Assembly (NCBI GenBank): GCA_963854835.1
Contig: OY978529.1
Location: 33,042,055 to 33,106,054 of the forward strand
DNA length: 64,000 bases
Direction of reading: 5' to 3'
Origin: Megamerina dolium
Taxonomy: Eukaryota; Arthropoda; Insecta; Diptera; Megamerinidae
Positions 24,261 through 60,197 of the stretch are shown piece after piece. Below the pieces are notes generated by a model that saw only the letters and a list, made by a program, of their open reading frames with translations, was not told the DNA's origin and made no database searches. Every line of letters begins with the position of its first letter. Positions within the stretch are counted from its first letter, which is position 1. Position numbers and translations under genes: made by a program.

Positions 24261-24275
24261 CTGCCCTCCTCTTAA
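24261..24275 (-). other. Polypurine tract of the gypsy element
   Basis: Reading the minus strand, AAGAGGAGGGCAG directly abuts the 3' LTR, the expected position and composition for the plus-strand primer. Confidence 0.8.
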
Positions 24276-24298
24276 CCTTGTTCGTCCCGAATAAGTTT

Positions 24299-27200: not shown

Positions 27201-27764
27201 TAACGTCCTACCAAGTATGATGTTTTTATTTTGTATTTCTTTATCTGCTTCCACTAACCACAACTTGCCTGTCCCATCATCCACATTTATCTGTGCCCAA
27301 ATCACCGCTTCTGATTTTGCTGGAACTTCTTGGCGTTGACATGCCAGTACTCGTTTGATGTTTCCACTCCGCTTGTAACCGATGTTCAATGGTAATTCGA
27401 CATTTGCATAGCGCAGTATCCGTTGATTTAAATCTAACGTAAATCCGTTGTCAATCATAAAATCAATACCAATTATTACGTCATCGATGATGTCAGCCAC
27501 AATGAATTCATGTTCCCACGTGTAATTTCCAATAGATACTCGATTCTTTATCTTACCCAGAATTTGTGCATCCTCACCCATTGCTGTACGCAATTTTATT
27601 CCCATTAAAGGCTCAAACCTCTTTACCAAATCGCTCTTGATTATAGAATGTGATGCACCAGTGCCCAGGGTTAACATGAATTCCATATTGTCCAATTTTC
27701 CATCAATAGTCAAGCTGCTTGGCACACGCTGTAGTTGTGAAATGTGAATGATGGGGCAACCCAC
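24299..27764 (-). pseudogene. gypsy pol: protease, RT, RNase H, integrase (three frames)
   Basis: Reads 27764-26868 (protease), 26898-26518 (RT start) and 26656-24299 (rest of RT to integrase, 785 codons). Visible motifs: RT active box YLDD (CLVYLDDIIVMG), RNase H TDASGYGIGGVLSQ, integrase zinc finger with H-X-H and KCKQC, catalytic MDIAGPFP, HSDQGRNFES and DGMVERFNRTLEEYL, and a GPY/F-type tail (HWEGPYEII). Two frameshifts separate the pieces (near 26880 and 26690). In the protease, the expected D-T-G-A is read as LGTGAS, so the catalytic Asp is gone. The long intact integrase half suggests recent inactivation. Confidence 0.93.
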
Positions 27765-27802
27765 TGTTAGAGACAGTTCACGCCCCGCTGAACTGACTCG
27801 AT

Positions 27803-29119
27803 TTAGTTTAACGATGGATTTATGTTAGTGGAGCGAGCGCTATCCACCTTATTCTCCTTCTTTTGTCTTCCTGGAGAATTCGCTCTTGATCGCTTTCGTC
27901 GTAGACGGCAGTCACGCGCCATGTGTCCTGGTTTGTCGCAAATAAAGCACTTACCAGTAAATTTGTTTTCGCGTCGACCTGTTGTTCTTCCTTCAGGCTG
28001 CACTACAGATTTGAATGCCTGACACACTGCTTCAACCAGATCTGCTGTTTCTGTTTCTAGTTGGTGTACCCGTGGCATTGGTCGACACATCAAACTGGCG
28101 GCTTCAAACGTCAAGGCACTACTGACTGTTTCGGCATAAGTATTCCTTGGTGACATGACTAGGGCACGCTTTGTCACTCCATCACGTATGCCATCTATGA
28201 ATGCCTCTATTTTTATTTTTTCTACGAACTCTTCCGAATTACCGGAGAACGCTAGATGACATAAGCGCTCAATATCGGAAGCGAATTCCTGAAGGCTCTC
28301 ATTACTCCGTTGCACTCGCGATCTCAATTCCACTCGATGTAATTGACTCTTGTATTCATTTCCATATTTCCGCTGGAGTGTGTCCATCAATGATTAGTAG
28401 CTACCACGATCTTTCTCTGGAATCATCTGTAACACTTCGGAAGCATTACCTTTTAATGCGACTATTAAAGCAGCAGTCTTGTCGCTATCATCCCATTGAT
28501 TCTTCGAAGCTGTTGTCTCGAATTGAAGCTTAAAGATATTGAATGGCGTGCTTCCGTCAAATGTTGGTGGCTTTAGTTTAATTGTAGTTGACTCTCTTAT
28601 CACTGATGTGGTTGCTCCACTTATTTTTATTTTATTAAGTTCGCGCTCTAATTTCTCAAGCTTTTCTTCCAAGTCGTCATGTCTGTCTACATGTTCCTTC
28701 AGCTTATCATCCAAATCATCCACATGTTCTTTCAGCTCTGTGACTTTGTCATGAATAGCTCCGGAAATTTCCTGAAATCTAATCTCAATTCCCTTTTGTA
28801 GTTTTTCGATGACATGTTCTTGACGAGCCGAATGTTCTTGAAGCTTGGAGTCAATTGTTTTCTGGAATTCTCCCATAATGCTTTCTTGACGAGAAGCACT
28901 TTCTTGTAGCTGTTGTTGTTGCTGCAGCATCATGGTTTTCATGAAATCCATGAGTTGACCACTCTAATCTATTTTGCTCTCTTCCTCAGCGTGCACAACT
29001 GCTTGTATATCGGCTTCCTCAAAGAACTCATGCTCTTCTACATTAATTCCCTTAGCCTCCATAGCTTGCCTCAACCTCACCAGCAGTTCCGCCTTTGCAC
29101 CTGATGACGATAGATTCAT
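27803..29119 (-). pseudogene. gypsy gag (two in-frame stops)
   Basis: Starts at 29119 with MNLSSSGAKAELLVRL, a short SAP-like helix, and runs through a Gln-rich and then coiled-coil segment to a capsid region and a nucleocapsid CCHC knuckle (CFICDKPGHMARDC). Two stop codons lie in the same frame: one about 150 nt in, before LMDFMKTMM, and one at about 28394. The last 150 nt are Arg/Lys-rich as expected for nucleocapsid. Gag ends shortly before the protease frame starts. Confidence 0.88.
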
Positions 29120-29141
29120 CTCTACCAACAGCTTTACAGAA

Positions 29142-29158
29142 TCCCACTTCTGACACCA
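29142..29158 (-). other. Primer-binding site, tRNA-Leu type
   Basis: On the minus strand, TGGTGTCAGAAGTGGGA sits two bases inside the 5' LTR. It complements the 3' end (...CACTTCTGACA plus CCA) typical of insect tRNA-Leu. Confidence 0.8.
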
Positions 29159-29160
29159 AT

Positions 29161-29597
29161 TGTTAAGTTTTTATTCTGTGAACGTTTAATTCTATTTGAA
29201 TTACCTTGTTCGATCACTGGATTCTATTAATGATAACTGCAACACTTATTTTATACAACTATATACAGCAACAATTTATTTAATAATCTCTATTTACAAT
29301 CAACACTGTTTACAATCAACTATTTACTATAACACTTAAATGTACTTGCAACTTTTGCCTCTGTATCAATGTTTTCGCAATCACGTTCGGAATTAGATTG
29401 ATTCTCACTTCTCAACACTGGCTCTATTTATACTCTGTTGGCAACACCCCAGAATCTTCCTTTATCGAGATTCTTCTCTTTCTTTCTCGTTGGCTTGTTC
29501 TGGTTATTACTTATTTCTTTTTGTTGACATTCGTTTCGATGCTGCCAATAGTGTCAGTCCAATAGTGATGAGTAACCAACTATCGATACTCGTTACA
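29161..29597 (-). repeat. 5' LTR of the gypsy element
   Basis: Right-hand LTR, 437 bp, starting TGTTAAG and ending CGTTACA in plus orientation. Pair of 23824-24260. Confidence 0.95.
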
Positions 29598-35085: not shown

Positions 35086-37780
35086 ATATATATTTCATAT
35101 TTGGTTCGATCATTAATTATTTGCCACAATATTGTGTATCATCATGATATCCAGTAATGGCACGCACCACAAAACAAGTTAACGCAGAACCGTGATTAGT
35201 GATTCCGGCTTTGCTAAAGGCGCAAACGGCACACATTGGGAAAAACATAGTAAAAACCCAAGCATTGGGGGTAATTCAAAAGTTACGGGCCTAATTTTTT
35301 GTCAAATTTTTTTGGAATCTAGATATATCAAATATATAAAAAAGTTATTTCGAAAGTAAATTGGTCCCAATACCTTTGCTCTGCAGCCTTTCAAATATAC
35401 CCAAAAAAATTTGTTTTTTTATTTTTATTCAGAAACTAAATTTGATGATTACATTGAAATGTATGTAGAGTGAGTGTTTACCAACCGAATTTAATGAAAC
35501 TTTAGGATCTTAAAAATGACGATTTGACCTTTACATTAAATTTGATTATCGTGCTTATAATTCTAAAGATATGAGCATTTAAAAAAATGGATTTTTTTTT
35601 AATTTCCTACTAAATTCAAGATTTTCTACGGATGAAAACTTTCACGGATTAACGCGGATTAGTAACATTTTTACATAGTGATAATCCTGGATTCTTAACG
35701 AAGAAAATGGTACCCAAATGTTTTGCTCTAAGCTGCTCCTTTGTAAGTTTTTTTAATTTTAATGTGTTGCCTTCGGCTTAAAAATTAAAATTTGAATATG
35801 GTTTTCGGCATTTCCTGCCTACAAAAAGTAAGTATCGTAGATTAAATTTGATAAGTAGGCTACACTTGAAAGTCAAACCGTTATGAGTTACGGTTATCTG
35901 TAATTTGACTTTCCGAAAAGTTCTAAAAGTGAATATAAACGCGAAAAAAGCGTAATGGCTGAAAATAGTATGTAATATTTAATATTATATGTATGAAATA
36001 AAAGCAATTTTTAAATTTTAGTCGTCACTAGACGAGATATTTGCGAAAACCTTTTAAAAACAAAAAAATTCAAAAACTTTACGGAGGCGGTAGAACCGAT
36101 ACAAGGTTATATTGTAGAGCGTGGACAGCCTATTCCACCTGCTGATTACAATGGTGACTAGTTTGCGCGCCTCCAATAAATTAGCGAACACTGAAAAAGA
36201 GTTACCACAAGAAGTGGTAGCAATGTTGATTAAGTAATAATATGTATATAATTAATAAAAAAAAGTAGTATATAGACTTTTTCTTTTTGTTTGTGATGTC
36301 TTACCACATTTACATAAAATACGTACAATTTTGGCGTTAAAGGAGAAAAAAACGCTGAAATACAAGAACACAAACTACTAAGCTGCACGTTTTTTGTACA
36401 ACATTGTCATATCAGACCAATGACTTTTCAAAGAATTTAACATCTGGCTGTAGGGTGAAGAAAAAAATATAACGCGTATCAGACAAATCTCAAAAAAATC
36501 TTGATGAAAACACTAAAATTTGTAATATTTACGACATAGAGTAGGGGTGAAAACTATTGAAATTAATTGTGTTAGTTTCATATGTTTTATCGCTGTAACA
36601 AAAGTTTTGCTCTCAAATTAAAAAAATGCTGATACACGTATTTCGTTATTTTTAATGTTTTATGAGAATCAATTGCTAAAATTTTTATATCCCCTATTTC
36701 TTATTCGTGGTGTAATTTTTTAAAAGTCTTAACTTCCGAGTGTAGGGTACTAATACCCGATAGTAGAAAAAAAAAATTTTCATATCATACGATTCTCCGA
36801 AGATTTCCAATAATAACATATCCAAAATTTGTAAGCGTAGCACTGATAACTTAGCAGTTATCACATAAAATAGGCGATGCGAGCGTTTTTGATATGTTTT
36901 TCGCAATGTGCGGCATTACTAGTTCAACAAGTCGATGTAGAACAAACACAATAACCGATTTCGTCACACCCTTCAATTAATTCATTCATAAATATCCACC
37001 TACAACCTCTACGAAACCCTAGACGTCGAATGTGTACCATCTCCACCACACACAGCCCCATTCAGGTTACATCCAAAAGAGGATACATTGTGGGTTCCGG
37101 AATTAACAGAACTAATCGACAACCTCAACCATTTGGGGAGAAAATGATGCTTACCTTAAATGAGGGGATGGTATTTTTACCCCCCTGGTTTAACTCCATG
37201 TCGAGCGATTTAATATCCCAAATTAATAGGGGTATTTCAGCTATATTTTTAAAAAAGGTAACCCCAACAATAGACGACACTGGCAAAAAGAAAACATCAT
37301 AGAAATAGGCAAAACCGATAAGCCCATGAGCAATTGGTGTCAGTCGACCACAAGCAACCAACTATGAACGGCCACAGGTAGGTTGCAGCACTGTTTCAGT
37401 AACATCTGTCAAACAGAACTGTCATCCGAGACATCATATGTGTCTACGCCAGAGTACATGACGTCCACTGTCTGTGTGTATCTTTACATTGTTTGTATAA
37501 AGAGAGTTGGCAACTCAGTTTTTGTTTACGTCACTCTTCTTAATTCCCAACGTTGTTATTATCATATACATATATCACGACAGAACACGAAATGTTTTTT
37601 TCTCAAAATTTTCGTTACTTAAGTATTTATAATACTATATATAAAGTGCAAATTTTATATTTAAAAATAACAAATAAATGGCGAGTTTTTATTCGAGGGT
37701 GTATAAATTATCAACCCCATCATCATATCAACAGCAACAGCGATTTCATCAGCAGCACCTCTAAAATACTCCATCATCCA
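35086..37780 (+). repeat. Repeat module, copy 1 (interrupted)
   Basis: Copy of the non-satellite module that precedes each satellite array, split by the insertion at 35136-36921. It includes a 90-codon frame at 37030-37302 (starts MCTISTTHSP) that recurs in the other copies, then GTCTACGCCAGAGT, an ACTCAGTTTTTGTTTACG segment, an uninterrupted ATACATATATC site that the errantiviruses use in other copies, AATAAAGTG-like sequence, and the CCCCATCATCATATCAACAGC entry into the satellite. Compared with copies 2 and 3 it lacks about 110 bp before TTGCAGCACTG. Origin unknown. Confidence 0.7.
35136..36921. mobile_element. Unclassified 1.8-kb insertion in the repeat module
   Basis: Sequence matching the start of the ~2-kb module (TTCATATTTGGTTCGATCATT at about 35094) stops at about 35135 and resumes at about 36922 (TTCAACAAGTCGATG), whereas two other copies are continuous here. 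The extra 1.8 kb is AT-rich with no long ORF. Possible imperfect terminal inverted repeats: AGTAATGGCACGCAC near the left end and the complement of AGTAATGCCGCAC at the right. About 20 bp of the module were lost. Could be a non-autonomous DNA transposon; family unknown. Confidence 0.4.
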
Positions 37781-39515
37781 CACTAAAACAGCAAGAGGTA
37801 CTTCAGCCGACGTTAAAGCTCACCGGCAGCCCCTCCCACTCGTCCAATATGTTTAGTTTATGGTTTGCTATCTTACAATAAGGATCGTTTAACAATCGCT
37901 CAACGTTTTAAAATTGTAAAAACTTAGTACAAAAATAGTGATTCGGCAGTAAGAACGTAAGAACCAGCAACAGCGATTTCATCAGCAGCACCTCTAAAAT
38001 ACTTCATCATCCACACTAAAACAGCAAGAGGTACTTCAGCCGACGTTAAAGCTCACCGGCAGCCCCTCCCACTCGTCCAATATGTTTAGTTTATGGTTTG
38101 CTATCTTACAATAAGGATCGTTTAACAATCGCTCAACGTTTTAAAATTGTAAAAACTTAGTACAAAAATAGTGATTCGGCAGTAAGAACGTAAGAACCAG
38201 CAACAGCGATTTCATCAGCAGCACCTCTAAAATACTTCATCATCCACACTAAAACAGCAAGAGGTACTTCAGCCGACGTTAAAGCTCACCCGCAGCCCCT
38301 CCCACTCGCCCAATACGTTTAGTTTATGGTTTGCTATCTTACAATAAGGATCGTTTAACAATCGCTCAACGTTTTAAAATTGTAAAAACTTAGTACAAAA
38401 ATAGTGATTCGGCAGTAAGAACGTAAGAACCAGAAACAGCGATTTCATCAGCAGCACCTCTAAAATACTTCATCATCCACACTAAAACAGCAAGAGGTAC
38501 TTCAGACGACGTTAAAGCTCACCGGCAGCCCCTCCCACTCGTCCAATATGTTTAGTTTATGGTTTGCTATCTTACAATAACGATCGTTTAACAATCGCTC
38601 AACGTTTTAAAATTGTAAAAACTTAGTACAAAAATAGTGATTCGGCAGTAAGAACGTAAGAACCAGCAACAGCGATTTCATCAGCAGCACCTCTAAAATA
38701 CTTCATCATCCACACTAAAACAGCAAGAGGTACTTCAGACGACGTTAAAGCTCACCGGCAGCCCCTCCCACTCGTCCAATATGTTTAGTTTATGGTTTGC
38801 TATCTTACAATAACGATCGTTTAACAATCGCTCAACGTTTTAAAATTGTAAAAACTTAGTACAAAAATAGTGATTCGGCAGTAAGAACGTTTCGTGCATT
38901 ATGAGCAGAGCATGTTTATATGTTTATAGGTCCAATATGTTTAGTTTATGGTTTGCTATCTTACAATAAGGATCGTTTAACAATCGCTCAACGTTTTAAA
39001 ATTGTAAAAACTTAGTACAAAAATAGTGATTCGGCAGTAAGAACGTAAGAACCAGCAACAGCGATTTCATCAGCAGCACCTCTAAAATACTTCATCATCC
39101 ACACTAAAACAGCAAGAGGTACTTCAGCCGACGTTAAAGCTCACCGGCAGCCCCTCCCACTCGTCCAATATGTTTAGTTTATGGTTTGCTATCTTACAAT
39201 AAGGATCGTTTAACAATCGCTCAACGTTTTAAAATTGTAAAAACTTAGTACAAAAATAGTGATTCGGCAGTAAGAACGTAAGAACCAGCAACAGCGATTT
39301 CATCAGCAGCACCTCTAAAATACTTCATCATCCACACTAAAACAGCAAGAGGTACTTCAGCCGACGTTAAAGCTCACCGGCAGCCCCTCCCACTCGCCCA
39401 ATACGTTTAGTTTATGGTTTGCTATCTTACAATAAGGATCGTTTAACAATCGCTCAACGTTTTAAAATTGTAAAAACTTAGTACAAAAATAGTGATTCGG
39501 CAGTAAGAACGTTTC
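37781..39515. repeat. Satellite array A (233-bp and 156-bp units)
   Basis: GTCCAATATGTTTAG-type starts at 37842, 38075, 38308, 38541, 38774, 38930, 39163 and 39396, so spacing is 233 bp except one 156-bp interval. Units share a ~115-bp core; the long unit adds a 'CCAGCAACAGCG...CCCACTC' segment, the short one a 'TTTCGTGCATTATGAGCAG...TTTATAGG' segment. Adjacent units are almost identical. The array ends with the GTATGTCCGACATGAACGTCC terminal segment. Confidence 0.95.
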
Positions 39516-39803
39516 GTGCATTATGATCAGAGTATGTCCGACATGAACGTCCATCAGATGAGCGCACAATTGGTAATTCAAGGAATTCGAGGACTTTTGA
39601 TCTCAGTTTTTGTTTACGTCACTCTTCTTAATTCCCAACGTTGTTATTCTCATATACATATATCACGACAGAACACGAAATGTTCTTTTCTCAAAATTTT
39701 CGTTACTTAAGTATTTATAATACTATAAATAAAGTGCAAATTTTATATTTAAAAATAACAAATAAATGGCGAGTTTTTATTCGAGGGTGTATAAATTATC
39801 AAC
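39516..39803 (+). repeat. Module derivative with internal deletion
   Basis: After the satellite comes GTCCGACATGAACG...GACTTTTGATCT, joined directly to CAGTTTTTGTTTACGTC. In the complete module (44457-46428) these two points are about 1.9 kb apart. The same junction occurs again at about 50775. It then runs through the ATACATATATC site and AATAAAGTG to TTATCAAC, where the hAT element is inserted. Confidence 0.75.
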
Positions 39804-44456: not shown

Positions 44457-46428
44457 TGAGCGCACAATTGGTAATTCAAGGAATTCGAGGACTTTTGATC
44501 TAATGTTTTGTTTGATTGATATTTCAAGGCCAATACATCATCGGAATGCTAGCTCAGCGTAAATATTTAACCGCCATCGATATCAAGTAAAAGGAACTTC
44601 AACAGATTTTGTGGAAAAAAAAGTCATTGCAGCTACATGTTAATGAGGTGGCATTTCGGAGAAATAGTTAAAATTTTGGAAACGTCTTTCCAATTTTTCA
44701 AATACTTTTTATGAACTGAAATAGTTTCGAAAACAATATAATGTATATACACATATACATTTGATTGCAGGGATAATCTTGGAAAATTTAAGCTACATGC
44801 TTGTTGTGACAACTGTCCCTCTCACCTATATGTATCCAACTATTTGCGGAGAGTACTCTCATGACTAGATGGTTGTAGAAAATAGTTCGCAGAAAATGTT
44901 GGTGACTATTACACTACTACCGGTATTACTTGGGTTGATCCGCAGTATGAATAAGAAAAGTGGATAGAAAAAGTATATAATAATAATAAAACAAAATAGA
45001 AGTCTGTAAGGGATCGTAATAAACGTAAGAGGCTATAAAAAAAATGAAAAAAATTATTATATACTTTTTTGGAATAAATAAAATTTGATATAGCAGGCGG
45101 TGAAAGAAAAAAAAATAAATAAAAATAAAATGATAGAGTGTAATAATGGAAATAAAAATATAGGAAAAGTAAGTAAAAGGGGAAAAATACATTTGAGAAG
45201 GCAGCTACAAACACATGTGTGGTGTGAATTGATTGTCGACTGTGGATTGTAGATTGTAGGTTGGTATGTGAATAGTTTTAGGAAAAATTGTATATAAGCT
45301 GCTTAATGAAGACAGACAGATTTTGAGTTGTGAGTTTACAGTGATAAGTGAAGTGTGTACTGCGATCCTTACGAGGTCCTCCAGTATTAGTGTTTAAGAT
45401 TAAAAGTTTGTAAAAGTGAAGTAGTGAAAAACAGGGGAAATAAAATCCAAAGGAAGCTGGATCAACTAGGCGTTGTTTATTGAAAGGGACAATAGAGGCG
45501 GTATGTATACTCCACAAATTCAACTCCACTTTTCAGATGATCAGTGTTGAAGTTCTGAAAGGACTCGCAACACTTAGGGAAAAATAGTCCACAACAGATA
45601 CTAAAATATATTTCATATTTGGTTCGATCATTAATTATTTCCCACAATTTCCCGAATCGATTTGAATCGAATCAATTCAACGAATCGATGCACATAGAGC
45701 AAACACAATCATCGATTTCGTCAAACCCTACAATTAATTCATTCATAAATATCCACCTACAACTTCTTCGGAACCCTAGACGTCGAATGTGTACCATCTC
45801 CACCACACACAGCCCCATTCAGGTTACATCCAAAAGAGGATACATTGCGGGTTCCGGAATTATCAGAACTAATCGACAACCTCAACCATTTGGGGAGAAA
45901 ATGATGCTTACCTTAAATGAGTTGATGGTATTTTTACCCCCCTGGTTTAACTCCATGTCGAGCGATTTAATATCCCAAATTAATAGGGGTATTTCAGCTA
46001 TATTTTTATAAAAGGTAACCCCAACAATAGACGACACTGGCAAAAAGAAAACATCATAGAAGTAGGCAATACCGATAAGGCCATGAGCAATTGGTGTCAG
46101 TCGACCACAAGCAACCAACTATGAACGGCCACAGGTTACGGTGCGACTTGCGCACGTATATATGTATGTAAAATTAATAAGAAGCAATAGACTATTTGAA
46201 CCATTACATATATTGGGTTATCCATTTAGTGCTCCAGATTTTGCAGCACTGTTTCAGTAACATCTGTCAAACAGAACTGTCATCCGAGACATCATATGTG
46301 TCTACGCCAGAGTACGTGACGTCCACTGTCTGTGTGTATCTTTACATTGTTTGTATAAAGAGAGTTGGCAACTCAGTTTTTGTTTACGTCACTCTTCTTA
46401 ATTCCCAACGTTGTTATTCTCATATACA
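44457..46428 (+). repeat. Repeat module, copy 2 (complete on its left side)
   Basis: Runs from GTCCGACATGAACGTCC through GACTTTTGATCT, a poly-A/T-rich stretch, AAGCTGCTTAATGAAGACAG, TTCATATTTGGTTCG, the recurrent 90-codon frame (here stopped early by TAA after AIFL), GTCTACGCCAGAGT and ACTCAGTTTTTG to TCTCATATACA, where chimeric LTR element 1 is inserted. It continues after that element at 49520. No function recognised; open frames on either strand are AT-rich artefacts, apart from the recurrent 90-codon frame, which I cannot assign. Confidence 0.75.
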
Positions 46429-46599
46429 AGTTAACGCTATCGTCCAGCAAAGCGACGGCCATTGACTTGTGGTTACGTGACTGCAGTGCTCAGTCAGCAG
46501 AATGTGTGGCCGCTGCTGAACAAACAAACGTTGTCACAGCTAAGTAACATTAAACCTCTGGCACTGTTTTATGTTTATGTTATTTCAATAAGCAAAAAG
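46429..46599 (+). repeat. Partial 5' LTR of chimeric element 1
   Basis: Begins AGTTAACGCTATCG, the AGTTAA start usual for errantivirus LTRs, and matches 49239-49409 base for base by eye. It stops after AATAAGCAAAAAG, where the 3' LTR goes on for another 110 bp. The junction to the capsid-like segment is at 46599/46600. Confidence 0.9.
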
Positions 46600-46627
46600 C
46601 TAAAAGAGTTTAACTGAGACAAACAAA

Positions 46628-47620
46628 ATGGAACAAACAAAACGTATCTACACAGCAGCTGAAATTAAGAAGCTAGCACCAGGATACAGAGGTAAGCCTG
46701 AAAACTTCGATCCTTCGAAGCCTAAAACAGAAAGGCCATTACCCAAAGTGAGAAATCCAACTCACACAGCCGAGATCCCAAAACCCACCCAGATAAACGC
46801 AGCTCAGAAACCAACGCCGCAGAAAAACTCGCCCTTGTGGGCAGAAGCAGTGTTTGGCATTGACGTATCTGTGCGTGAAGTACAGGTGAATCTCGAATTT
46901 CAAGATAGCTATGCTAAGTTGAAAAACATCGTCGCTGAAGTCTATTCAGCTTTAGGAACCGACGATAGAGTTTTGACGAAAAATCTAACAAAGGAGATGC
47001 TCATGTACTACGGTGCATGTTTGCTCTGGATTAGATTAATTCAAATCAAAGCTCAAAGAACGAATACAGATCTCTCTGACCAAGAAAAAGATCTGTTAAG
47101 AATACTAGCGGACGAAGAATTTAACGTCCCACAGCCTATGTACCTATACATGAAAGCAATAGGTAACGTGAATGATAAAACAGGAAAAGAGATTTTCTTG
47201 ACGGATCACACGTTGCCAACAGCCCATGCAGGTGACAAAACAGGCTACCACTCTAGTACGATGGATGCGATAAGTCATTGTCTATTCGAAGAGGTTCCAA
47301 GCCTCGGAGTATGCGGTGATATTCTCATGTGTCAAGCATCTAGAGAACAAACGAGTCCAAACTTCGGATTCGTACCTGCAGAAAGAACAGCCAACAAGAA
47401 CTTGGCAGGCTATTTCGGAAATGTAACGGTTCAGAAAGAAGAAATAATTCTACTTCTCCAATCTTTTGGAATATATGTAGACTCCTTCGCTGAAAACATC
47501 CGTGACACCCGTTTGAACCTGAAACTTGTTCAATACGTTAGCGATTATCTGCAAAGCTCAAAATCTTTCCGGAATGAAAAGGTAAAGATGAGCAACTTAA
47601 CAGCGGCAGGTAGGAGATAA
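46628..47620 (+). CDS. Capsid-like protein, probably from a partitivirus-like dsRNA virus (captured)
   Basis: An uninterrupted 330-codon ORF with a good start context (ACAAAATGG). The first ~75 residues are Lys/Pro-rich and disordered-looking (KKLAPGYRGKPENFDPSKP); from about residue 80 it is a folded, mostly helical protein with MYYGACLLWIRLIQIK, PQPMYLYMKAIGNV and YHSSTMDAISHCLFEEVPSL. It has no zinc knuckle, protease or RT motifs and does not resemble errantivirus Gag. The I-G-N...L-P...G...A-x-S-H-x-L-x-E pattern recalls partitivirus-type capsid proteins and is echoed in the second element's ORF. That family call is from memory of the fold pattern, not a search. Base composition is less AT-rich than its surroundings. 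It may be C-terminally truncated at the pol junction. Confidence 0.6.
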   Translation: MEQTKRIYTAAEIKKLAPGYRGKPENFDPSKPKTERPLPKVRNPTHTAEIPKPTQINAAQKPTPQKNSPLWAEAVFGIDVSVREVQVNLEFQDSYAKLKNIVAEVYSALGTDDRVLTKNLTKEMLMYYGACLLWIRLIQIKAQRTNTDLSDQEKDLLRILADEEFNVPQPMYLYMKAIGNVNDKTGKEIFLTDHTLPTAHAGDKTGYHSSTMDAISHCLFEEVPSLGVCGDILMCQASREQTSPNFGFVPAERTANKNLAGYFGNVTVQKEEIILLLQSFGIYVDSFAENIRDTRLNLKLVQYVSDYLQSSKSFRNEKVKMSNLTAAGRR

Positions 47621-47753
47621 GGTAATGGTAAAAACAAATAGAAGGCTGGGAAATAAACTTACACCCCTGTATGTCGAAGAAACAGTGCAAGCAGACCTAG
47701 GAACAACAGTTCTTATAAAAGGGAGGGTGGTCCACAAGGACAATTTAAGATAA
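47611..47753 (+). pseudogene. Errantivirus pol remnant (integrase C-terminal tail), element 1
   Basis: In a frame different from the capsid-like ORF, the sequence reads GDKVMVKTNRRLGNKLTPL and ends GRVVHKDNLR followed by TAA. This matches the extreme C-terminus of errantivirus integrase and its parallel in element 2 (TVFVRINKRLGTKLSEKY...GRVVHKKHIRN). It overlaps the end of the capsid-like ORF by a few bases, placing the recombination junction near 47605-47615. Confidence 0.75.
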
Positions 47754-47759
47754 TTAAGT

Positions 47760-49274
47760 TTAATATTCCACTACTCAAAGTTTGGTATTTCGTTTAGGAT
47801 TATAATTGTACTTCTCTTCGCCGCGGTATCGACAGCTAAATTGACCGACTATTCCCATGCGAACTATATTCCAATAATAGATGGAGATGTGACGATCTGG
47901 CGGGAATTTGGATATCTAAGGCATACATCAAACCTCGCAACGTATTCAGAAATGGCCGATGAAACCAAAGGACTTACGAACCTATTTCCTCAGTCACATA
48001 TGAGAAAGATACTGGACTCACACATCGAACAGATAAGGACACTTTTGTCTACTATGGACGTTCATCACAGACATGCGAGAAGCATCAATTTTTTGGGCAC
48101 CGCTTTGAAAATAGTTGCAGGGACGCCAGATTTTGATGACTTCGAAAAAATAAAATTTAGTCAGCAAGAACTAATTGACTCAATGAAGAATAGGTTGCAA
48201 GCTGTAATGGAAGCTGCAGGTGGACACACTAAGTATTAAATTGTAAAAGTCCTAATTTTTCTACACAAAAACTCGTTCAATTGCATTCATTTAAAACTTC
48301 AATAAGTATTTTGCCTAACATTTTGCGTAGCTGTAAATTTGATGTCTCTCTGTATTTTGTTGCTTTTTTTGTCGCAAATAACTGTAAATGCATTCTTTCT
48401 CGTCTTGTTGTTATTAAGAAACATTGCGAAAATATAATTCAAAAAGAAACATGCAAAAAATATAATTGTTTTGTTGTTATTCTACATGCAAGTAAAAAAA
48501 GTTAATAAATTTGAGTTTTGCCTAACATTTTGGGTATGACTGTATAGTCTGTAAGAAACTAACTTTATATCCTGTCCAACATAACTCTACAATTCTCCAT
48601 TTTGCTGGAGGTAACCTTATCGCGGACTGCGGAAATCGCCTGATAGTAATCGCAAATTGCAGCGCAACGCTGACAACAACATTCTGTAGACAAATACCTG
48701 GGCCGACGTGTGCTCAACAGCTTCATGCTGGCGGTGTCGCTCACTGCAGCACCCGACCGAGCCATCTGAACCCTCTAACAATTGTTGACGATGGAGTCAT
48801 TATCATCAACGACGAAACTGCCATAGTACAAAGCACCGATGGTACCGAGAAAACCGTCTCCGGAACATATTTGCTCACCTTCAATGACGAAGTAAAAATC
48901 AACGGATCACTATATCGAAACGAAAGAAACATCGTTAGAAGGTCTCCAGCCTCAGCTACATCCACTTTAATAAATATTACACAACATCAAGAAATACTGA
49001 GCCTACCGTACCTACAAAGGATGAACATCGAAAACCTGCACTATATCGGTCAGATAAGAGAAGAGCTAAAGACCAGACCTTGGATGTTCATTTCTGCCGT
49101 AGTTGTCATCGTTCTCGTGTGTTTCTTCCTCCATAGACTATCTTTAAAAAAGAGGAAAGCCCGTCAACAATACCACGTCCAAACTATTATCGACAGTCTT
49201 AAGAAGGCCGAGGACGGCCTTAACTTAAACGAGGGAGGAGTTAACGCTATCGTCCAGCAAAGCGACGGCCATTG
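47760..49274 (+). pseudogene. Errantivirus env, split by an insertion (element 1)
   Basis: The first part (about 47775-48239) begins with a signal-peptide-like stretch (IIIVLLFAAVSTA), without its own ATG as expected if env is made by splicing. It has an R-x-x-R furin-type site (RHAR) before a hydrophobic segment like insect errantivirus fusion peptides. The frame ends at TAA 48237-48239. About 307 bp of unrelated AT-rich sequence follow. The second part (about 48550-49274) is Cys-rich, then has the transmembrane helix (WMFISAVVVIVLVCFFL) and a basic cytoplasmic tail that ends inside the 3' LTR. Some middle sequence may be missing. As read, it does not encode one continuous envelope protein. 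Confidence 0.82.
48240..48547. mobile_element. AT-rich insertion inside env, MITE-like
   Basis: About 300 bp unlike env. TTGCCTAACATTTTG occurs twice in the same orientation (about 48311 and 48519); the second copy runs to the right end as TTTTGGGTATGACTGTA, whose complement (TACAGTCATACCC) resembles Tc1-type termini. A matching left terminus was not found, so it may be truncated. Confidence 0.45.
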
Positions 49275-49519
49275 ACTTGTGGTTACGTGACTGCAGTGCT
49301 CAGTCAGCAGAATGTGTGGCCGCTGCTGAACAAACAAACGTTGTCACAGCTAAGTAACATTAAACCTCTGGCACTGTTTTATGTTTATGTTATTTCAATA
49401 AGCAAAAAGTTTGCATCAGCAATTCCGTTCAGTTGGACAGGCTTAGTTCTTAGTTTGTAAATTTTCTGTAATTCAGTGGTTCCTGGACAAGCAGACAATA
49501 AAGTTGAATAAAAATTACT
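49239..49519 (+). repeat. 3' LTR of chimeric element 1
   Basis: 281 bp, AGTTAACGC...AAAAATTACT, directly after a purine-rich stretch (ACGAGGGAGG) that would serve as polypurine tract. It contains AATAAA near its end (ACAATAAAGTTG). Confidence 0.88.
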
Positions 49520-50829
49520 TACATATATCATGACAGAACACGAAATGTTCGTTTCTCAAAATTTTCGTTACTTAAGTATTTATAATACTATAAATAAAGT
49601 GCAAATTTTATATTTAAAAATAACAAATAAATGGCGAGTTTTTATTCGAGGGTGTATAAATTATCAACCCCATCATCATATCAACAGCAGCAGCTACCTC
49701 ACCAGCAACAGCGATTTCATCAGCAGCACCTCTAAAATACTCCATCATCCACACTAAAACAGCAAGAGGTACTTCAGCCGACGTTAAAGCTCACCGGCAG
49801 CCCCTCCCACTCGTCCAATATGTTTAGTTTATGGTTTGCTATCTTACAATAAGGATCGTTTAACAATCGCTCAACGTTTTAAAATTGTAAAAACTTAGTA
49901 CAAAAATAGTGATTCGGCAGTAAGAACGTTTCGTGCATTATGAGCAGAGTATGTTTATATGTTTATATGTCCAATATGTTTAGTTTATGGTTTGCTATCT
50001 TACAATAAGGATCGTTTAACAATCGCTCAACGTTTTAAAATTGTAAAAACTTAGTACAAAAACAGTGATTCGGCAGTAAGAACGTAAGAACCAGCAACAT
50101 CGATTTCATCAGCAGCACCTCTAAAATACTTCATCATCCACACTAAAACAGCAAGAGGTACTTCAGCTGACGTTAAAGCTCACCGGCAGCCCCTCCCACT
50201 CGTCCAATATGTTTAGTTTATGGTTTGCTATCTTACAATAAGGATCGTTTAACAATCGCTCAACGTTTTAAAATTGTAAAAACTTAGTACAAAAATAGTG
50301 ATTCGGCAGTAAGAACGTAAGAACCAGCAACAGCGATTTCATCAGCAGCACCTCTAAAATACTTCATCATCCACACTAAAACAGCAAGAGGTACTTCAGC
50401 CGACGTTAAAGCTCACCGGCAGCCCCTCCCACTCGTCCAATATGTTTAGTTTATGGTTTGCTATCTTACAATAAGGATCGTTTAACAATCGCTCAACGTT
50501 TTAAAATTGTAAAAACTTAGTACAAAAATAGTGATTCGGCAGTAAGAACGTTTCGTGCATTATGAGCAGAGTATGTTTATATGTCCAATATGTTTAGTTT
50601 ATGGTTTGCTATCTTACAATAAGGATCGTTTAACAATCGCTCAACGTTTTAAAATTGTAAAAACTTAGTACGAAAATAGTGATTCGGCAGTAAGAACGTT
50701 TCGTGCATTATGAGCGTGCATCCATCAGATGAGCGCACAATTGGTAATTCAAAGAATTCGAGGACTTTTGATCTCAGTTTTAGTTTACGTCACTCTTCTT
50801 AATTCCCAACGTTGTTATTCTCATATACA
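49520..50829. repeat. Module remainder and satellite array C
   Basis: 49520-49684 continue module copy 2 after the LTR element. Satellite core starts are at about 49814, 49971, 50204, 50437 and 50584, mixing 233-bp units with short units near 157 and 147 bp (the last shortened). The array exits at about 50715, then CATCCATCAGATGAGCGC...GACTTTTGATCT joins directly to CAGTTTTAGTTTACGTC (the same deletion junction as at 39596) and runs to TCTCATATACA, the insertion point of chimeric element 2. Confidence 0.88.
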
Positions 50830-51131
50830 AGTTAACACATTATACATTGCATTTGTTACTACACACGTATCCCATCCAGACACACCGTCAGCAGTCACAT
50901 TCCAGGTGGTATATTGCGTTACTCGACGGGAATAAACAGCACTCAACGTTCCCACAGTGATCACTCGGCGCGTGGACTACGTCAGCAGTTTGGACTATTT
51001 TATTAAGTTAATGTTTAAGCCTTCTTTGTATTCTTAAATTTAGTTCGGTTTTTGTTCCAAATAAAGTAAGACGTGTTGCTAGCCAACACGCAGCCTTTTT
51101 TAAAAAATAAATAAAATTAATTTTTAATTAA
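50830..51131 (+). repeat. 5' LTR of chimeric element 2
   Basis: About 302 bp, beginning AGTTAACACATT and ending in an AT-rich stretch (TTTTTAATTAATT). It contains AAATAAAGTAAGAC. The exact 3' limit is inferred from where the coding sequence begins; I could not find a primer-binding site behind it. Confidence 0.65.
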
Positions 51132-51920
51132 TTGGGTGATGGCCCTGATAAGCGGACGCGCGAGGCTAATAAATCCAAAAACGGAGACGTAATTCCTAGT
51201 CGAAAGGTTGTCGATAAGGCGGATGCCAAGGGTAAAACTGAAAGCCCGCCACAAGACGAAGAGTTATGGAACCTCCCGGGGTTTAGTGAGTCCACTCCAA
51301 TCACAACTGGTTATTCCCACAACCTGGACTTTTCGGGGTTTTCTTCGGTACTTGAATCATCTTATGCTCAATTGCGTAAGTTAGATCCACGCATAGAAAA
51401 GAGCCTGCCTTTCTGCGTGTATCAGCATAGTTGTGTTTCGCGGTTGAACGCGCACATTATACGCTACGTGCAGGTGGAGAATAATGAAAACAGGATGATA
51501 GATGAAGGGTCACCCTATGACCTATTCCAGAGTGGTAGCGACTCTGTGGTTTCTCATCCAGCCGTATACGAATATTTATCTAGTATCGGCAAATCCCAGA
51601 CTATTGATGGAGATCTGGTTAGATTTAATCTTCCGGTTGATGCCATTCCGAAGGATACATTTGAGCTCGACAGCATTTCATATCCCCCCGGTTTATTTGG
51701 CCCGATTAATGCGGAGACACACAATTTGTATGAGTGTAACAAGAGGAAACACGATGAAAAAGAATATATTCCGGGTCAAACAGTTTTTGTACGAATTAAT
51801 AAAAGATTAGGAACAAAACTATCTGAGAAATATAAGGAAGAAATAGTGAAGGAAAACAGAACCTCCACGATAGTCACCGAAAGCGGACGTGTCGTTCACA
51901 AGAAACATATTAGAAACTAA
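51132..51920 (+). CDS. Capsid-like protein fused in frame to an integrase tail
   Basis: 262 codons without a stop; no ATG at the start (a TAA stop lies just upstream at 51129-51131, and the first in-frame ATG is about 51494), so the 5' end of the captured gene appears lost. Residues about 1-205 are capsid-like: LPFCVYQHSC, HIIRYVQVENNENRMIDEG, VYEYLSSIGKSQTIDGD, VRFNLPVDAIP and PPGLFGPINAETHNLYEC. The last block, an FGP-x-x-A-x-T-H-N-x-Y-E-C pattern, is what I associate with partitivirus capsid proteins. From about residue 206 it becomes pol-like (YIPGQTVFVRINKRLGTKL...GRVVHKKHIRN). It may be an expressed fusion or a chance in-frame join; the sequence cannot decide. Confidence 0.62.
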   Translation: MGDGPDKRTREANKSKNGDVIPSRKVVDKADAKGKTESPPQDEELWNLPGFSESTPITTGYSHNLDFSGFSSVLESSYAQLRKLDPRIEKSLPFCVYQHSCVSRLNAHIIRYVQVENNENRMIDEGSPYDLFQSGSDSVVSHPAVYEYLSSIGKSQTIDGDLVRFNLPVDAIPKDTFELDSISYPPGLFGPINAETHNLYECNKRKHDEKEYIPGQTVFVRINKRLGTKLSEKYKEEIVKENRTSTIVTESGRVVHKKHIRN

Positions 51921-51949
51921 TTTCCAAATTTACATTTACAGATAGCTAA

Positions 51950-52678
51950 TATTAACGGCACTTTGCGCCGGGGAAATTCAAATATTGGATTACTCAAATT
52001 CAGAATTGGTAGCAATGCACTCAGGAACAGCTAAAGTCCAGCCTGGCACTTTCAAGATAATTCATACTATAGAATTGAAAAAATACGATACTCTCATCCA
52101 CGAGATAGAAAGAAACATTGTTCAGAATATCACCTATAATCACCCTCTAATTCCTTACCTAAAATACAATAAAATCCTACATATCCCGACTCAAACCAAA
52201 TTAAAAGGCTAAACGTTCACTGGACTTTATCCGCAGCGCATGGAAATGGATTGCCGGAAGCCCAGACCATCACGATTTTGAAATAATTCAGAGAAAGATG
52301 GAAGATGTCTTGGAAAATAATAGCAATCAAATCGTAATTAATCGTCTGTCACTTGAAAAAATTAATAAACTTACAAATGCCACAAACGAAATAATCAGAA
52401 TTATAAAAACAGAACAAAATCTCCATAATGAAAGAATATTAGAATTTAAATACAAACTTGAATTGTTAAAGGAAGATATTGCCAACATTGAATTCGCAAT
52501 TCATTTAGCTAAAGCTAACATTGTCAATTCATTTATTCTTTCTTCTTTTGAAGTACAAATTTTAAATCATATCTTTAACAAAAGTAATGTACCATTTTCC
52601 AGTACTGACGAATTGCTACACTTTGCTGAAGTAAAAATTGCCATTGAACAATATATTGTACTGGTATCGCTGTTGCTG
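51950..52678 (+). pseudogene. Errantivirus env fragment (element 2), frameshifted and truncated
   Basis: 51985-52212 is an N-terminal env-type frame (VQPGTFKIIHTIELKKYD). A single-base frameshift at about 52205 interrupts it exactly where a basic cleavage site would be. A fusion-peptide-like segment with W-K-W-I-A-G-S-P-D follows, then a helical, Glu/Ile/Asn-rich region (KINKLTNATNEIIRIIK). It stops at the satellite junction before any transmembrane segment. It does not encode a complete envelope protein. Confidence 0.75.
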
Positions 52679-55600
52679 GTAAGAACCAGCACCAGCGATT
52701 TCATCAGCAGCACCTCTAAAATACTTCATCATCCACACTAAAACAGCAAGAGGTACTTCAGCCGACGTTAAAGCTCACCGGCAACCCCTCCCACTCGTCC
52801 AATATGTTTAGTTTATGGTTTGCTATCTTACAATAAGGATCGTTTAACAATCGCTCAACGTTTTAAAATTGTAAAAACTTAGTACAAAAATAGTGATTCG
52901 GCAGTAAGAACGTAAGAACCAGCAACAGCGATTTCATCAGCAGCACCTCTAAAATACTTCATCATCCACACTAAAACAGCAAGAGGTACTTCAGCCGACG
53001 TTAAAGCTCACCGGCAGCCCCTCCCACTCGTCCAATATGTTTAGTTTATGGTTTGCTATCTTACAATAACGATCGTTTAACAATCGCTCAACGTTTTAAA
53101 ATTGTAAAAACTTAGTACAAAAATAGTGATTCGGCAGTAAGAACGTTTCGTGCATTATGAGCAGAGCATGTTTATATGTTTATAGGTCCAATATGTTTAG
53201 TTTATGGTTTGCTATCTTACAATAAGGATCGTTTAACAATCGCTCAACGTTTTAAAATTGTAAAAACTTAGTACAAAAATAGTGATTCGGCAGCAAGAAC
53301 GTAAGAACCAGCAACATCGATTTCATCAGCAGCACCTCTAAAATACTTCATCATCCACACTAAAACAGCAAGAGGTACTTCAGCCGACGTTAAAGCTCAC
53401 CGGCAGCCCCTCCCACTCGTCCAATATGTTTAGTTTATGGTTTGCTATCTTACAATAACGATCGTTTAACAATCGCTCAACGTTTTAAAATTGTAAAAAC
53501 TTAGTACAAAAATAGTGATTCGGCAGTAAGAACGTTTCGTGCATTATGAGCAGAGCATGTTTATATGTTTATAGGTCCAATATGTTTAGTTTATGGTTTG
53601 CTATCTTACAATAAGGATCGTTTAACAATCGCTCAACGTTTTAAAATTGTAAAAACTTAGTACAAAAATAGTGATTCGGCAGTAAGAACGTAAGAACCAG
53701 CAACAGCGATTTCATCAGCAGCACCTCTAAAATACTTCATCATCCACACTAAAACAGCAAGAGGTACTTCAGCCGACGTTAAAGCTCACCGGCAGCCCCT
53801 CCCACTCGTCCAATATGTTTAGTTTATGGTTTGCTATCTTACAATAAGGATCGTTTAACAATCGCTCAACGTTTTAAAATTGTAAAAACTTAGTACAAAA
53901 ATAGTGATTCGGCAGTAAGAACGTTTCGTGCATTATGAGCAGAGCATGTTTATATGTTTATAGGTCCAATATGTTTAGTTTATGGTTTGCTATCTTACAA
54001 TAAGGATCGTTTAACAATCGCTCAACGTTTTAAAATTGTAAAAACTTAGTACAAAAATAGTGATTCGGCAGTAAGAACGTAAGAACCAGCAACAGCGATT
54101 TCATCAGCAGCACCTCTAAAATACTTCATCATCCACACTAAAACAGCAAGAGGTACTTCAGCCGACGTTAAAGCTCACCGGCAGCCCCTCCCACTCGTCC
54201 AATATGTTTAGTTTATGGTTTGCTATCTTACAATAACGATCGTTTAACAATCGCTCAACGTTTTAAAATTGTAAAAACTTAGTACAAAAATAGTGATTCG
54301 GCAGTAAGAACGTTTCGTGCATTATGAGCAGAGCATGTTTATATGTTTATAGGTCCAATATGTTTAGTTTATGGTTTGCTATCTTACAATAAGGATCGTT
54401 TAACAATCGCTCAACGTTTTAAAATTGTAAAAACTTAGTACAAAAATAGTGATTCGGCAGTAAGAACGTAAGAACCAGCAACAGCGATTTCATCAGCAGC
54501 ACCTCTAAAATACTTCATCATCCACACTAAAACAGCAAGAGGTACTTCAGCCGACGTTAAAGCTCACCGGCAGCCCCTCCCACTCGTCCAATATGTTTAG
54601 TTTATGGTTTGCTATCTTACAATAACGATCGTTTAACAATCGCTCAACGTTTTAAAATTGTAAAAACTTAGTACAAAAATAGTGATTCGGCAGTAAGAAC
54701 GTTTCGTGCATTATGAGCAGAGCATGTTTATATGTTTATAGGTCCAATATGTTTAGTTTACGGTTTGCTATCTTACAATAAGGATCGTTTAACAATCGCT
54801 CAACGTTTTAAAATTGTAAAAACTTAGTACAAAAATAGTGATTCGGCAGTAAGAACGTAAGAACCAGCAACAGCGATTTCATCAGCAGCACCTCTAAAAT
54901 ACTTCATCATCCACACTAAAACAGCAAGAGGTACTTCAGCCGACGTTAAAGCTCACCGGCAGCCCCTCCCACTCGTCCAATATGTTTAGTTTATGGTTTG
55001 CTATCTTACAATAAGGATCGTTTAACAATCGCTCAACGTTTTAAAATTGTAAAAACTTAGTACAAAAACAGTGATTCGGCAGTAAGAACGTAAGAACCAG
55101 CAACATCGATTTCATCAGCAGCACCTCTAAAATACTTCATCATCCACACTAAAACAGCAAGAGGTACTTCAGCTGACGTTAAAGCTCACCGGCAGCCCCT
55201 CCCACTCGTCCAATATGTTTAGTTTATGGTTTGCTATCTTACAATAAGGATCGTTTAACAATCGCTCAACGTTTTAAAATTGTAAAAACTTAGTACAAAA
55301 ATAGTGATTCGGCAGTAAGAACGTAAGAACCAGCAACAGCGATTTCATCAGCAGCACCTCTAAAATACTTCATCATCCACACTAAAACAGCAAGAGGTAC
55401 TTCAGCCGACGTTAAAGCTCACCGGCAGCCCCTCCCACTCGTCCAATATGTTTAGTTTATGGTTTGCTATCTTACAATAACGATCGTTTAACAATCGCTC
55501 AACGTTTTAAAATTGTAAAAACTTAGTACAAAAATAGTGATTCGGCAGTAAGAACGTTTCGTGCATTATGAGCAGAGCATGTTTATATGTTTATAGGTCC

Positions 55601-56178
55601 AATATGTTTAGTTTACGGTTTGCTATCTTACAATAAGGATCGTTTAACAATCGCTCAACGTTTTAAAATTGTAAAAACTTAGTACAAAAATAGTGATTCG
55701 GCAGTAAGAACGTAAGAACCAGCAACAGCGATTTCATCAGCAGCACCTCTAAAATACTTCATCATCCACACTAAAACAGCAAGAGGTACTTCAGCCGACG
55801 TTAAAGCTCACCGGCAGCCCCTCCCACTCGTCCAATATGTTTAGTTTATGGTTTGCTATCTTACAATAAGGATCGTTTAACAATCGCTCAACGTTTTAAA
55901 ATTGTAAAAACTTAGTACAAAAATAGTGATTCGGCAGTAAAAACGTAAGAACCAGCAACAGCGATTTCATCAGCAGCACCTCTAAAATACTTCATCATCC
56001 ACACTAAAACAGCAAGAGGTACTTCAGCCGACGTTAAAGCTCACCGGCAGCCCCTCCCACTCGTCCAATATGTTTAGTTTATGGTTTGCTATCTTACAAT
56101 AAGGATCGTTTAACAATCGCTCAACGTTTTAAAATTGTAAAAACTTAGTACAAAAATAGTGATTCGGCAGTAAGAACG
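52679..56178. repeat. Satellite array D, higher-order 389-bp repeat
   Basis: Core starts at 52797, 53030, 53186, 53419, 53575, 53808, 53964 and onward alternate 233 and 156 bp, i.e. a 389-bp higher-order unit repeated about five times up to 54742, followed by runs of 233-bp units with one more 156-bp unit (55441 to 55597). Diagnostic variants (ACGATCG versus AGGATCG after CTTACAATA) partly track the higher-order phase. About 17 units; neighbouring units differ at only a few bases, implying recent amplification or gene conversion. Confidence 0.95.
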
Positions 56179-57078
56179 TGCATTATGAGCAGAGTATGTC
56201 CGACATGAACGTCCATCAGATGAACGCACAATTGGTAATTCAAGGAATTCGAGGACTTTTGATCTGATGTTTTGTTTGATTGATATTTCAAGGCCAATAC
56301 ATCATTGGAATGCTAGCTCAGCGTAAATATTTAACCGCCATCGATATCAAGTAAAAGGAACTTCAACAGATTTTGTGGAATAAAAGTCATTGCAGCTACA
56401 TGTTAATGAGGTGGCATTTCGGAGAAATAGTTCCTTGCCACAATCTATTAAAATTTTGGAAACGTCTTTCCAATTATCCAAATACTTTTTATGAACTGAA
56501 ATAGTTTCGAAAACAATATAATGTATATACACATATACATTTATGATTGCAGGGATAACCTTGGAAAATTTAAACTACATGCTTGTTGTGACAAATGTCC
56601 CTCTCATCTATATGTATCCAACTATTTGCGGAGAGTACTCTCATGACTATATGGTTGTAGAAAATAGTTCGCAGAAAATGTTGGTGACTATTACACTACT
56701 ACCGGTATTACTTGGGTTGATCCGCAGTATGAATAAGAAAAGTGGATAGAAAGAGTATATAATAATAATACAACAAAATAGAAGTCTGTAAGGGATCGTA
56801 ATAAACGTAAGAGGCTATAAAAAACATGAAAAAAATTATTATATACTTTTTTGGAATTATTAAAATTTGATATAGCAGGCGGTGAAAGAAAAAAAAAATA
56901 AATAAAAATAAAATGATAGAGTGTAATAATGGAAAATAAAAATATAGGAAAAGTAAGTAAAAGGGGAAAAATACATTTGAGAAGGCAGCTACAAACACAT
57001 GTGTGGTGTGAATTGATTGTCGACTGTGGATTGTAGATTGTAGGTTGGTATGTGAATAGTTTTAGGAAAAATTGTATA
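56179..57078 (+). repeat. Repeat module, copy 3 (left part)
   Basis: Begins ATGAGCAGAGTATGTCCGACATGAACG and follows module copy 2 closely (GACTTTTGATCTGATG, then the AT-rich stretch) with a few substitutions and small indels, up to AGGAAAAATTGTATA where the second Tigger is inserted. Confidence 0.8.
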
Positions 57079-58976: not shown

Positions 58977-60197
58977 TATAAGCTGCTTAATGAAGACAGA
59001 CAGATTTTGAGTTGTGAGTTTACAGTGATAAGTGAAGTGTGTACTGCGATCCTTACGAGGTCCTCCAGTATTAGTGTTTAAGATTAAAAGTTTGTAAAAG
59101 TGAAGTAGTGAAAAACAGGGGAAATAAAATCCAAAGGAAGCTGGATCAACTAGGCGTTGTTTATTGAAAGGGACAATAGAGGCGGTATGTATACTCCACA
59201 AATTCAACTCCACTTTTCAGATGATCAGTGTTGAAGTTCCGAAAGGACTCGCAACACTTAGGGAAAAATAGTCCACAACAGATACTAAAATATATTTCAT
59301 ATTTGGTTCGATCATTAATTATTTCCCACAATTTCCCGAATCGATTTGAATCGAATCAATTCAACGAATCGATGCACATAGAGCAAACACAATCATCGAT
59401 TTCGTCAAACCCTACAATTAATTCATTCATAAATATCCACCTACAACCTCTACGAAACCCTAGACGTCGAATGTGTACCATCTCCACCACACACAGCCCC
59501 ATTCAGGTTACATCCAAAAGAGGATACATTGCGGGTGCCGGAATTATCCGAACTAATCAACAACCTCAACCATTTGGGGAGAAAATGATGCTTATCTTAA
59601 ATGAGTTGATGGTATTTTTACCCCCCTGGTTTAACTCCATGTCGAGCGATTTAATATCCCAAATTAATAGGGGTATTTCAGCTATATTTTTAAAAAAGAT
59701 AACCCCAACAATAGACGACACTGGCAAAAAGAAAACATCATAGAAGTAGGCAATACCGATAAGGCTATGAGCAATTGGTGTCAGTCGACCACAAGCAACC
59801 AACTATGAACGGCCACAGGTTACGGTGCGACTTGCGCACGTATATATGTATGTGAAATTAATAAGAAGCAATAGACTATTTGAACCATTACATATATTGG
59901 GTTATCCATTTAGTGCTCCAGATTTTGCAGCACTGTTTCAGTAACATCTGTCAAACAGAACTGTCATCCGAGACATCATGTGTCTACGCCAGAGTACGTG
60001 ACGTCCACTGTCTATGTGTATTTTTACATTGTTTGTATAAAGAGAGTTGGCAACTCAGTTTTTGTTTACGTCACTCTTCTTAACGTTGTTATTCTCATAT
60101 ACATATATCATGACAGAACACGAAATGTTCTTTTCTCAAAATTTTCGTTACTTAAGTATTTATAATACTATAAATAAAGTGCAAATTTTATATTTAA
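58977..60197 (+). repeat. Repeat module, copy 3 (right part)
   Basis: Continues copy 3 after the Tigger: TAAGCTGCTTAATGAAG, TTCATATTTGGTTCG, the 90-codon frame (complete here, with a few substitutions relative to copy 1), TTACGGTGCGACTTGCGC, GTCTACGCCAGAGTACG, ACTCAGTTTTTG, and an intact errantivirus target (ATACATATATC), to ATATTTAA where piggyBac is inserted. No satellite follows in this window. Confidence 0.78.

Follow-up and report, generated by a model that had tools for sequence, protein, structure and literature searches.

An errantivirus insertion carrying a partiti-like capsid sequence in the fly Megamerina dolium, probably formed by template switching

The capture of RNA-virus genes by long terminal repeat (LTR) retrotransposons is already known, from cell fusing agent virus (CFAV) in Ty3/gypsy sequences and from a nodavirus in a Bel/Pao element, and the locus described here adds to these cases env-carrying errantiviruses as captors, inner junctions that can be read alongside a target-site duplication (TSD) and unoccupied sites, and a second chimera that shares the target site. 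This locus, element A, is a 3,091-bp unit (46429–49519) with errantivirus LTR ends and TACA duplicated on either side, located in a 64,000-nucleotide stretch of the Megamerina dolium genome (Diptera, Megamerinidae; GenBank assembly GCA_963854835.1, contig OY978529.1, forward-strand positions 33,042,055 to 33,106,054), which as a whole is called the window and provides the numbering used throughout. An original prediction, made from the bare letters of the window, had described the unit as an LTR element with a capsid-like gene in place of gag-pol, generated by a template switch, integrated as one piece and amounting to a hybrid provirus. The follow-up analysis points to a copy of a partiti-like capsid RNA that was probably made and inserted by an errantivirus, that is, an env-carrying Ty3/gypsy element, by way of a template switch.

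In Aedes aegypti Aag2 cells, an endogenous viral element (EVE) derived from CFAV NS2A lies inside Ty3/gypsy sequences, and infected cells yielded more than 200 virus–LTR retrotransposon hybrid reads (Tassetto et al. 2019, PMC6797480). As described in the sections of that study on this locus, it resembles A in being part of an RNA-virus gene, flanked by a Ty3/gypsy LTR and gag, and missing at the corresponding position in the Liverpool genome; it differs in being a flavivirus piece on the gag side, whereas A combines a partiti-like capsid with an integrase tail, env, a TSD, empty sites and a twin. The element eBxnv-1 of Bursaphelenchus xylophilus carries a nodavirus RNA-dependent RNA polymerase gene in a Bel/Pao LTR element, is present in four strains and absent from two, and was attributed by its authors to copy-choice by the reverse transcriptase of the element (Cotton et al. 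2016, PMC5177903). Like A, it is an RNA-virus gene present once, bounded by short LTRs (132 nt) that are identical, and has no gag; unlike A, it involves another virus, gene, host and element and keeps a primer-binding site (PBS) and pol sequences, and no TSD is reported in the passages devoted to it, which also allude to an unnamed mammalian experiment. A full-length Pao-Bel element harbours AeBunya1, likewise an RNA-virus integration inside an LTR retrotransposon, although from another virus family; the part of the report that concerns it does not describe the junctions (Palatini et al. 2017, PMC5497376). In tephritid fruit flies, 11 of 64 non-retroviral EVEs are partitivirid, and capsid accounts for 8 of the 10 partitivirid table rows seen; the words LTR, retrotransposon and gypsy are absent from the main text of that paper, and its passages on these elements describe no LTR-bounded chimera (PMC10689555). 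Among the matches listed from the open-access literature, none reports a partiti-like capsid in an errantivirus. An experiment with lymphocytic choriomeningitis virus and an intracisternal A-type particle is reportedly also on record.

In its outer parts, element A shows the traits of an errantivirus provirus, namely LTRs, an env of family PF07253, an integrase tail and a 4-bp TSD at a TA-rich site, and no gag, protease, reverse transcriptase, integrase core, PBS or complete 5′ LTR is found within the unit, where capsid sequence takes their place. The left LTR fragment (46429–46599, plus strand) comprises LTR positions 1–171 and is 100% identical over these 171 bp to 49239–49409, the beginning of a complete 281-bp 3′ LTR (49239–49519, plus strand; termini AGTTAAC...AATTACT) delimited by comparison with family copies, and TACA stands immediately outside both (46425–46428 and 49520–49523); the original prediction had correctly described the matching TACA, the identical 171 bp and the full 3′ LTR. 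The left repeat would consist of U3 only, without R and U5, because its end at position 171 precedes an initiator-like TCAGT located at LTR position 191 in this family. In other copies the LTR is followed directly by GGCGCCCAACGGG, which is read as the PBS; A has no GGCGCCCAACGGG and, on this reading, no PBS. When the two 100-bp flanks of A were joined without the element and aligned to the copies of the host repeat present in the window, they ran across the site in 37471–37670 (97.5%), in 60011–60197 (94.8%, with one small gap off the site) and in 39602–39758 (98.7% over 157 of the 200 bp). Since these three copies keep the unoccupied site and TACA flanks both sides, the outer ends of A represent one insertion with a 4-bp duplication, in agreement with the predicted entry as a single unit. 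A genome search placed the LTR family in at least 40 places of the 500-Mb genome (57 first-look candidates, of which 40 were scored; two of the 40 places belong to the window) and found no other copy of the chimera.

The interior begins with a 28-nt leader (46600–46627, plus strand), which is not present in the LTR of other copies and is probably the viral 5′ untranslated region, followed by an open reading frame (ORF) of 330 codons (46628–47620, plus strand). As judged from protein relatives and predicted folds, this ORF encodes the N-terminal portion of a capsid protein of partiti-like (double-stranded RNA virus) type, from residue 1 to about 325, its last codons deriving from the junction. 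The protein search returned 46 relatives at E ≤ 0.1 (best E 4.8e-137), and neither an errantivirus Gag nor a host gene; most of them are unnamed, some entries bear the name of a virus, and partitivirus does not occur among the names seen. For 37 of the 46, the longest source contig has the size of a viral segment (924–2869 nt), as exemplified by P0002, with 448 aa on 1441 nt. The database name carried by P0002 and P0003, 'Bactrocera dorsalis orbivirus hypothetical protein 4', probably reflects a misassigned segment. The usual capsid has about 450 aa, and lengths of 415–527 aa occur in 30 of the 46 relatives, the remaining 16 being shorter, including the best one, P0001 (322 aa on a 1126-nt contig). 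The frame that had been called intact is indeed open over its 330 codons, but it stops near residue 325 of the 415–527 aa relatives, with about 118 residues missing, and is not a full-length capsid gene.

The predicted folds resemble those of helical partitivirus capsids, and the fold neighbours in BFVD include the partiti-like capsids of Galbut (E 4.5e-6), Verdadero (E 3.9e-9) and Orestiada (E 2.2e-8), yet these show 16–18% identity and belong to exogenous viruses; relatives and folds together uphold the assignment to a dsRNA-virus type of capsid. In viral_contigs, no capsid relative was confirmed by single protein or by alignment; the PDB sequence search gave no match for the ORF of A, and Pfam no family for the capsid ORF of A or of the second chimera, B. 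A ribosomal-protein match in PDB, obtained with the capsid alignment (E 1.2), was taken as chance. As to the partitivirid RNA-dependent RNA polymerase expected on a second segment of the source virus, no such segment could be linked: the family PF00680 has two weak places in the genome (of 11 candidates), linked neither to A nor to B. The capsid sequence of A occupies one place in the genome at 100%, and the other two places found are 34% and 32% identical. A qualifies as an LTR-captured EVE, since the LTRs of a single insertion with a TSD enclose sequence from a non-retroviral RNA virus.

The passage from virus to errantivirus (47607–47611, plus strand) was located by comparison with the family copies L015, L017 and L020, which the window matches from 47607 on and to which it is unrelated upstream (GCGG/CAGGTAGGAG in the window vs TTTT/CAGGTAGGAG in the copies). 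The two sides have CAG, possibly CAGGT, in common, a shared motif of 3–5 nt, which coincides with a splice-acceptor-like TTTTCAG/G of the family; how the viral side would continue beyond this point is judged from the protein relatives. The integrase frame is open through the junction point in L015 and L017 and shifted just upstream of it in L020, and in A the C-terminal integrase tail (47613–47753, plus strand) lies out of frame with the capsid ORF. It is followed by the 5′ part of env (47754–48182, plus strand; PF07253 profile positions 1–121) and, after an interruption, by the 3′ part (48547–49238, plus strand; profile positions 238–471), which ends in a putative polypurine tract (49231–49238). 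The integrase tail, the env and the full 3′ LTR of the original prediction are present, the 281-bp LTR being complete, but env is interrupted at 48180–48546 (plus strand), where a DNA-transposon end, 97–98% identical to places on C2, C4 and C6 and, on C4 and C6, close to inverted partners, replaces about 348 bp. By its motifs this end is presumably Tc1-like, and no scored place other than the window has it in env.

Over stretches of at least 90 bp, the integrase tail and env of A are at least 97% identical to L015, L017 and L020. The last 690–692 bp of env reach 100%, 99.9% and 99.6% in these three copies, respectively, and the tail with the 5′ env reaches 97.6–99.1% where copies were aligned over 280 bp or more, two short stretches being 100% identical. 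In L015, the values are 100% for the 3′ part of env (692 bp), 99.3% for the LTR, and 98.7% for the integrase tail plus 5′ env (471 bp). The insertion of A is probably young.

A second chimera, element B (50830–52661), lies 1.3 kb downstream of A and joins another errantivirus family to another partiti-like capsid. It starts at the same TACA site as A (50826–50829, identified by flank comparison), in another copy of the host repeat, its right flank being lost, and opens with a complete left LTR of 302–303 bp (50830–51132, plus strand), of a family for which 32 places were listed, a count that takes in partial places and the window's own. Next come TGG (51133–51135, plus strand), the first three PBS bases after this LTR in the copy L027, and, a few bases on, a capsid fragment truncated at both ends (51142–51737, plus strand). 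An integrase tail (51737–51920, plus strand), in frame with the fragment, and an env remnant (51921–52661, plus strand), the remainder of which is lost in tandem repeats from 52679, complete the unit; tail and env are 93.8–97.4% identical to L026, L028 and L029. The viral origin of the fragment follows from three sources: a 545-codon open frame on C2 (L010), to which it is 75% identical in nucleotides and 78% in amino acids; the relative P0050 (471 aa on a 1434-nt contig), sole match among 214 candidates; and profile comparisons with the capsid of A, in which the fragment alone gave E 4.8e-5 (probability 68%) and a four-sequence profile E 5.2e-12 (probability 97.5%). The whole ORF of B has three protein matches, all through their integrase tails.

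The order LTR / capsid / integrase tail / env, with the capsid in sense, is the same in both chimeras (2/2), and the B junction, unlike that of A, is not at AG. Host flanks in the A family were TATA- or TACA-like runs in 6/6 cases (five copies: L001, L004, L007 = L017, L008 and L021) and in the B family in 4/4 (three copies), so that a shared preference for TA-rich sites suffices to explain the presence of A and B at the same target. No Rfam match at gathering scores was found within 46300–53000.

The origin proposed for A by template switching would involve two jumps. Minus-strand synthesis may have started normally, through U5-R, the first jump, U3, the polypurine tract, env and the integrase tail; near the latter, the reverse transcriptase would have switched to the capsid plus-strand RNA at the shared CAG(GT) and copied it to, or near, the viral 5′ end. 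A second jump would have led into U3 of an errantivirus RNA at LTR position 171, U3 then being copied back as far as the polypurine tract of that RNA. Plus-strand synthesis primed there would yield a linear DNA, correctly starting with U3 on the left and ending with U5 on the right, which the integrase could insert with a 4-bp duplication, with no need for the PBS-mediated second jump. The scheme accounts for the U3-only left LTR, the missing PBS, the retention of the viral 5′ part and loss of the 3′ part, and the integrable ends; an internal entry into the RNA followed by copying toward its 5′ end fits because the virus starts 28 nt before the ATG and breaks off inside the gene. The parts of A with their arrangement and sense, the sequences at the junctions, the TSD, the empty sites and the single copy at 100% are observed, and from them the jumps, the order of the jumps, the U3/R boundary and the priming are reconstructed.

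Several results favour this template switch: the LTR termini, the TACA on both sides and the three unoccupied copies are what an ordinary insertion leaves, the errantivirus part hardly differs from that of relatives, two of which (L015 and L017) have integrase open at the junction, a short motif is shared at that point, and the sense order recurs in B. Other results weigh against it. With one chimera copy found, its existence before integration is a presumption, although the template switch of the original prediction is the best reading; run-off at the template end is likewise an assumption about the viral 5′ terminus, and just two chimeras bear on orientation. In addition, the scheme does not explain the transposon fragment in env, the complete LTR plus TGG of B needs another route to the left end, and the junction of A falls on the acceptor-like site.

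The single copy is equally what would be expected if the provirus had been there first and a later double-strand break had been repaired with capsid cDNA as filler, with deletion of the leader, gag and most of pol. The LTR ends and the TSD fit either course, the break in the left LTR falls at an arbitrary position, and the second replaced segment, at 48180–48546 in env, resembles a product of deletion and repair; nevertheless, such a capture requires viral cDNA in the nucleus and two separate events that gave A and B identical order and sense, and the breaks in U3 and in the integrase tail would have left integration-competent ends by coincidence, which makes it an unlikely origin, though one with some real weight. 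Much less probable is a capsid transcript spliced to the env acceptor TTTTCAG/G and then reverse transcribed: the CAG of A lies at that site, but the shared motif accounts for this junction equally well, and the explanation is kept as a minor one because B lacks an acceptor-like junction. An assembly chimera of viral or EVE sequence with a provirus is very improbable, given the exact LTR termini, the TSD, the three empty sites, the lack of any other assembly place with the A capsid above 34% identity, and the adjoining B with its other junctions. Nothing was found in favour of the capsid ORF as a host gene or as an accessory gene that the LTR family normally carries; this explanation is refuted by the copy structure (one copy at 100% vs at least 40 LTR places; integrase sequence at that point in L015 and L017) and opposed by virus-named relatives and a viral-capsid-like fold, and its probability is next to nil.

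A is not a replicating hybrid provirus, and in this respect the original prediction fails: the capsid is truncated, env interrupted, and the left LTR without R, U5 or PBS, and there is no sign of spread. A particle with the A capsid and env would be an unlikely product, because gag, protease, reverse transcriptase, integrase core, PBS and 5′ R-U5 are missing, in addition to those defects and to the single copy. The value of the locus is of another kind. The entry into animal genomes of RNA-virus genes that do not encode reverse transcriptase has often been inferred from neighbouring retroelements, and here inner junctions, TSD and empty sites can be read and a sibling event is found 1.3 kb away, so that copy-choice yields predictions open to testing (sense orientation, retention of the viral 5′ part, U3-only left ends); and the candidate vectors are extended to env-carrying errantiviruses and the cargo to partiti-like capsid RNA. 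A bolder and rather improbable extension is that errantivirus capture of partiti-like capsid RNA is recurrent and not a rare accident, the capsid mRNAs often entering the particles. If so, capsid mRNAs of germline-inherited partiti-like viruses would have been delivered by two unrelated errantivirus families to the same TATACA site, such loci could provide a heritable memory derived from viruses, with piRNAs as one possible means, and the U3 jump with the polypurine tract would be a general PBS-independent route to integrable chimeras.

Capsid-integrase joins occur elsewhere, as indicated by P0042, one of the 46 relatives, from another source (five contigs), in which an integrase core comes after the capsid (E 1.9e-6, a match that falls short of the curated cut-off); it carries no evidence on orientation, since a fused single frame is visible only in sense. 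Within the genome, the 545-codon frame related to B (L010, also L019; C2:79880667) contains a full-length partiti-like capsid and is flanked by the 434-bp LTRs of a gypsy-type element, which diverge from each other by about 7%, in a local array and beside an open frame of PF03564, presumably a Bel-type gag. It is possibly another capture, too rearranged to resolve, and was not counted as a third LTR/capsid chimera.

Further partiti-like capsid EVEs are a 415-codon open frame at C5:2370517 (L013), near frames that look like host genes, as we take them to be, a degraded copy at C1:112772394 (L014), and one at C3:10534387 (L011), the frame of which presumably runs into transposase-like sequence. 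Errantivirus LTRs are spaced at regular steps of about 6.4 kb at C6:29302316-29321744 and C2:57342389-57355304; both sampled LTRs on C6 have env and polypurine tract to their left and a PBS to their right, the arrangement of head-to-tail proviral arrays with shared single LTRs. In the window, nearly identical tandem arrays of 233-bp and related units (37732–39615, 49701–50699 and 52679–56277) surround copies of one host repeat, and an element with 439-bp terminal repeats, 98% identical and, by its ORFs, presumably of gypsy type, occupies 23822–29597 on the minus strand.

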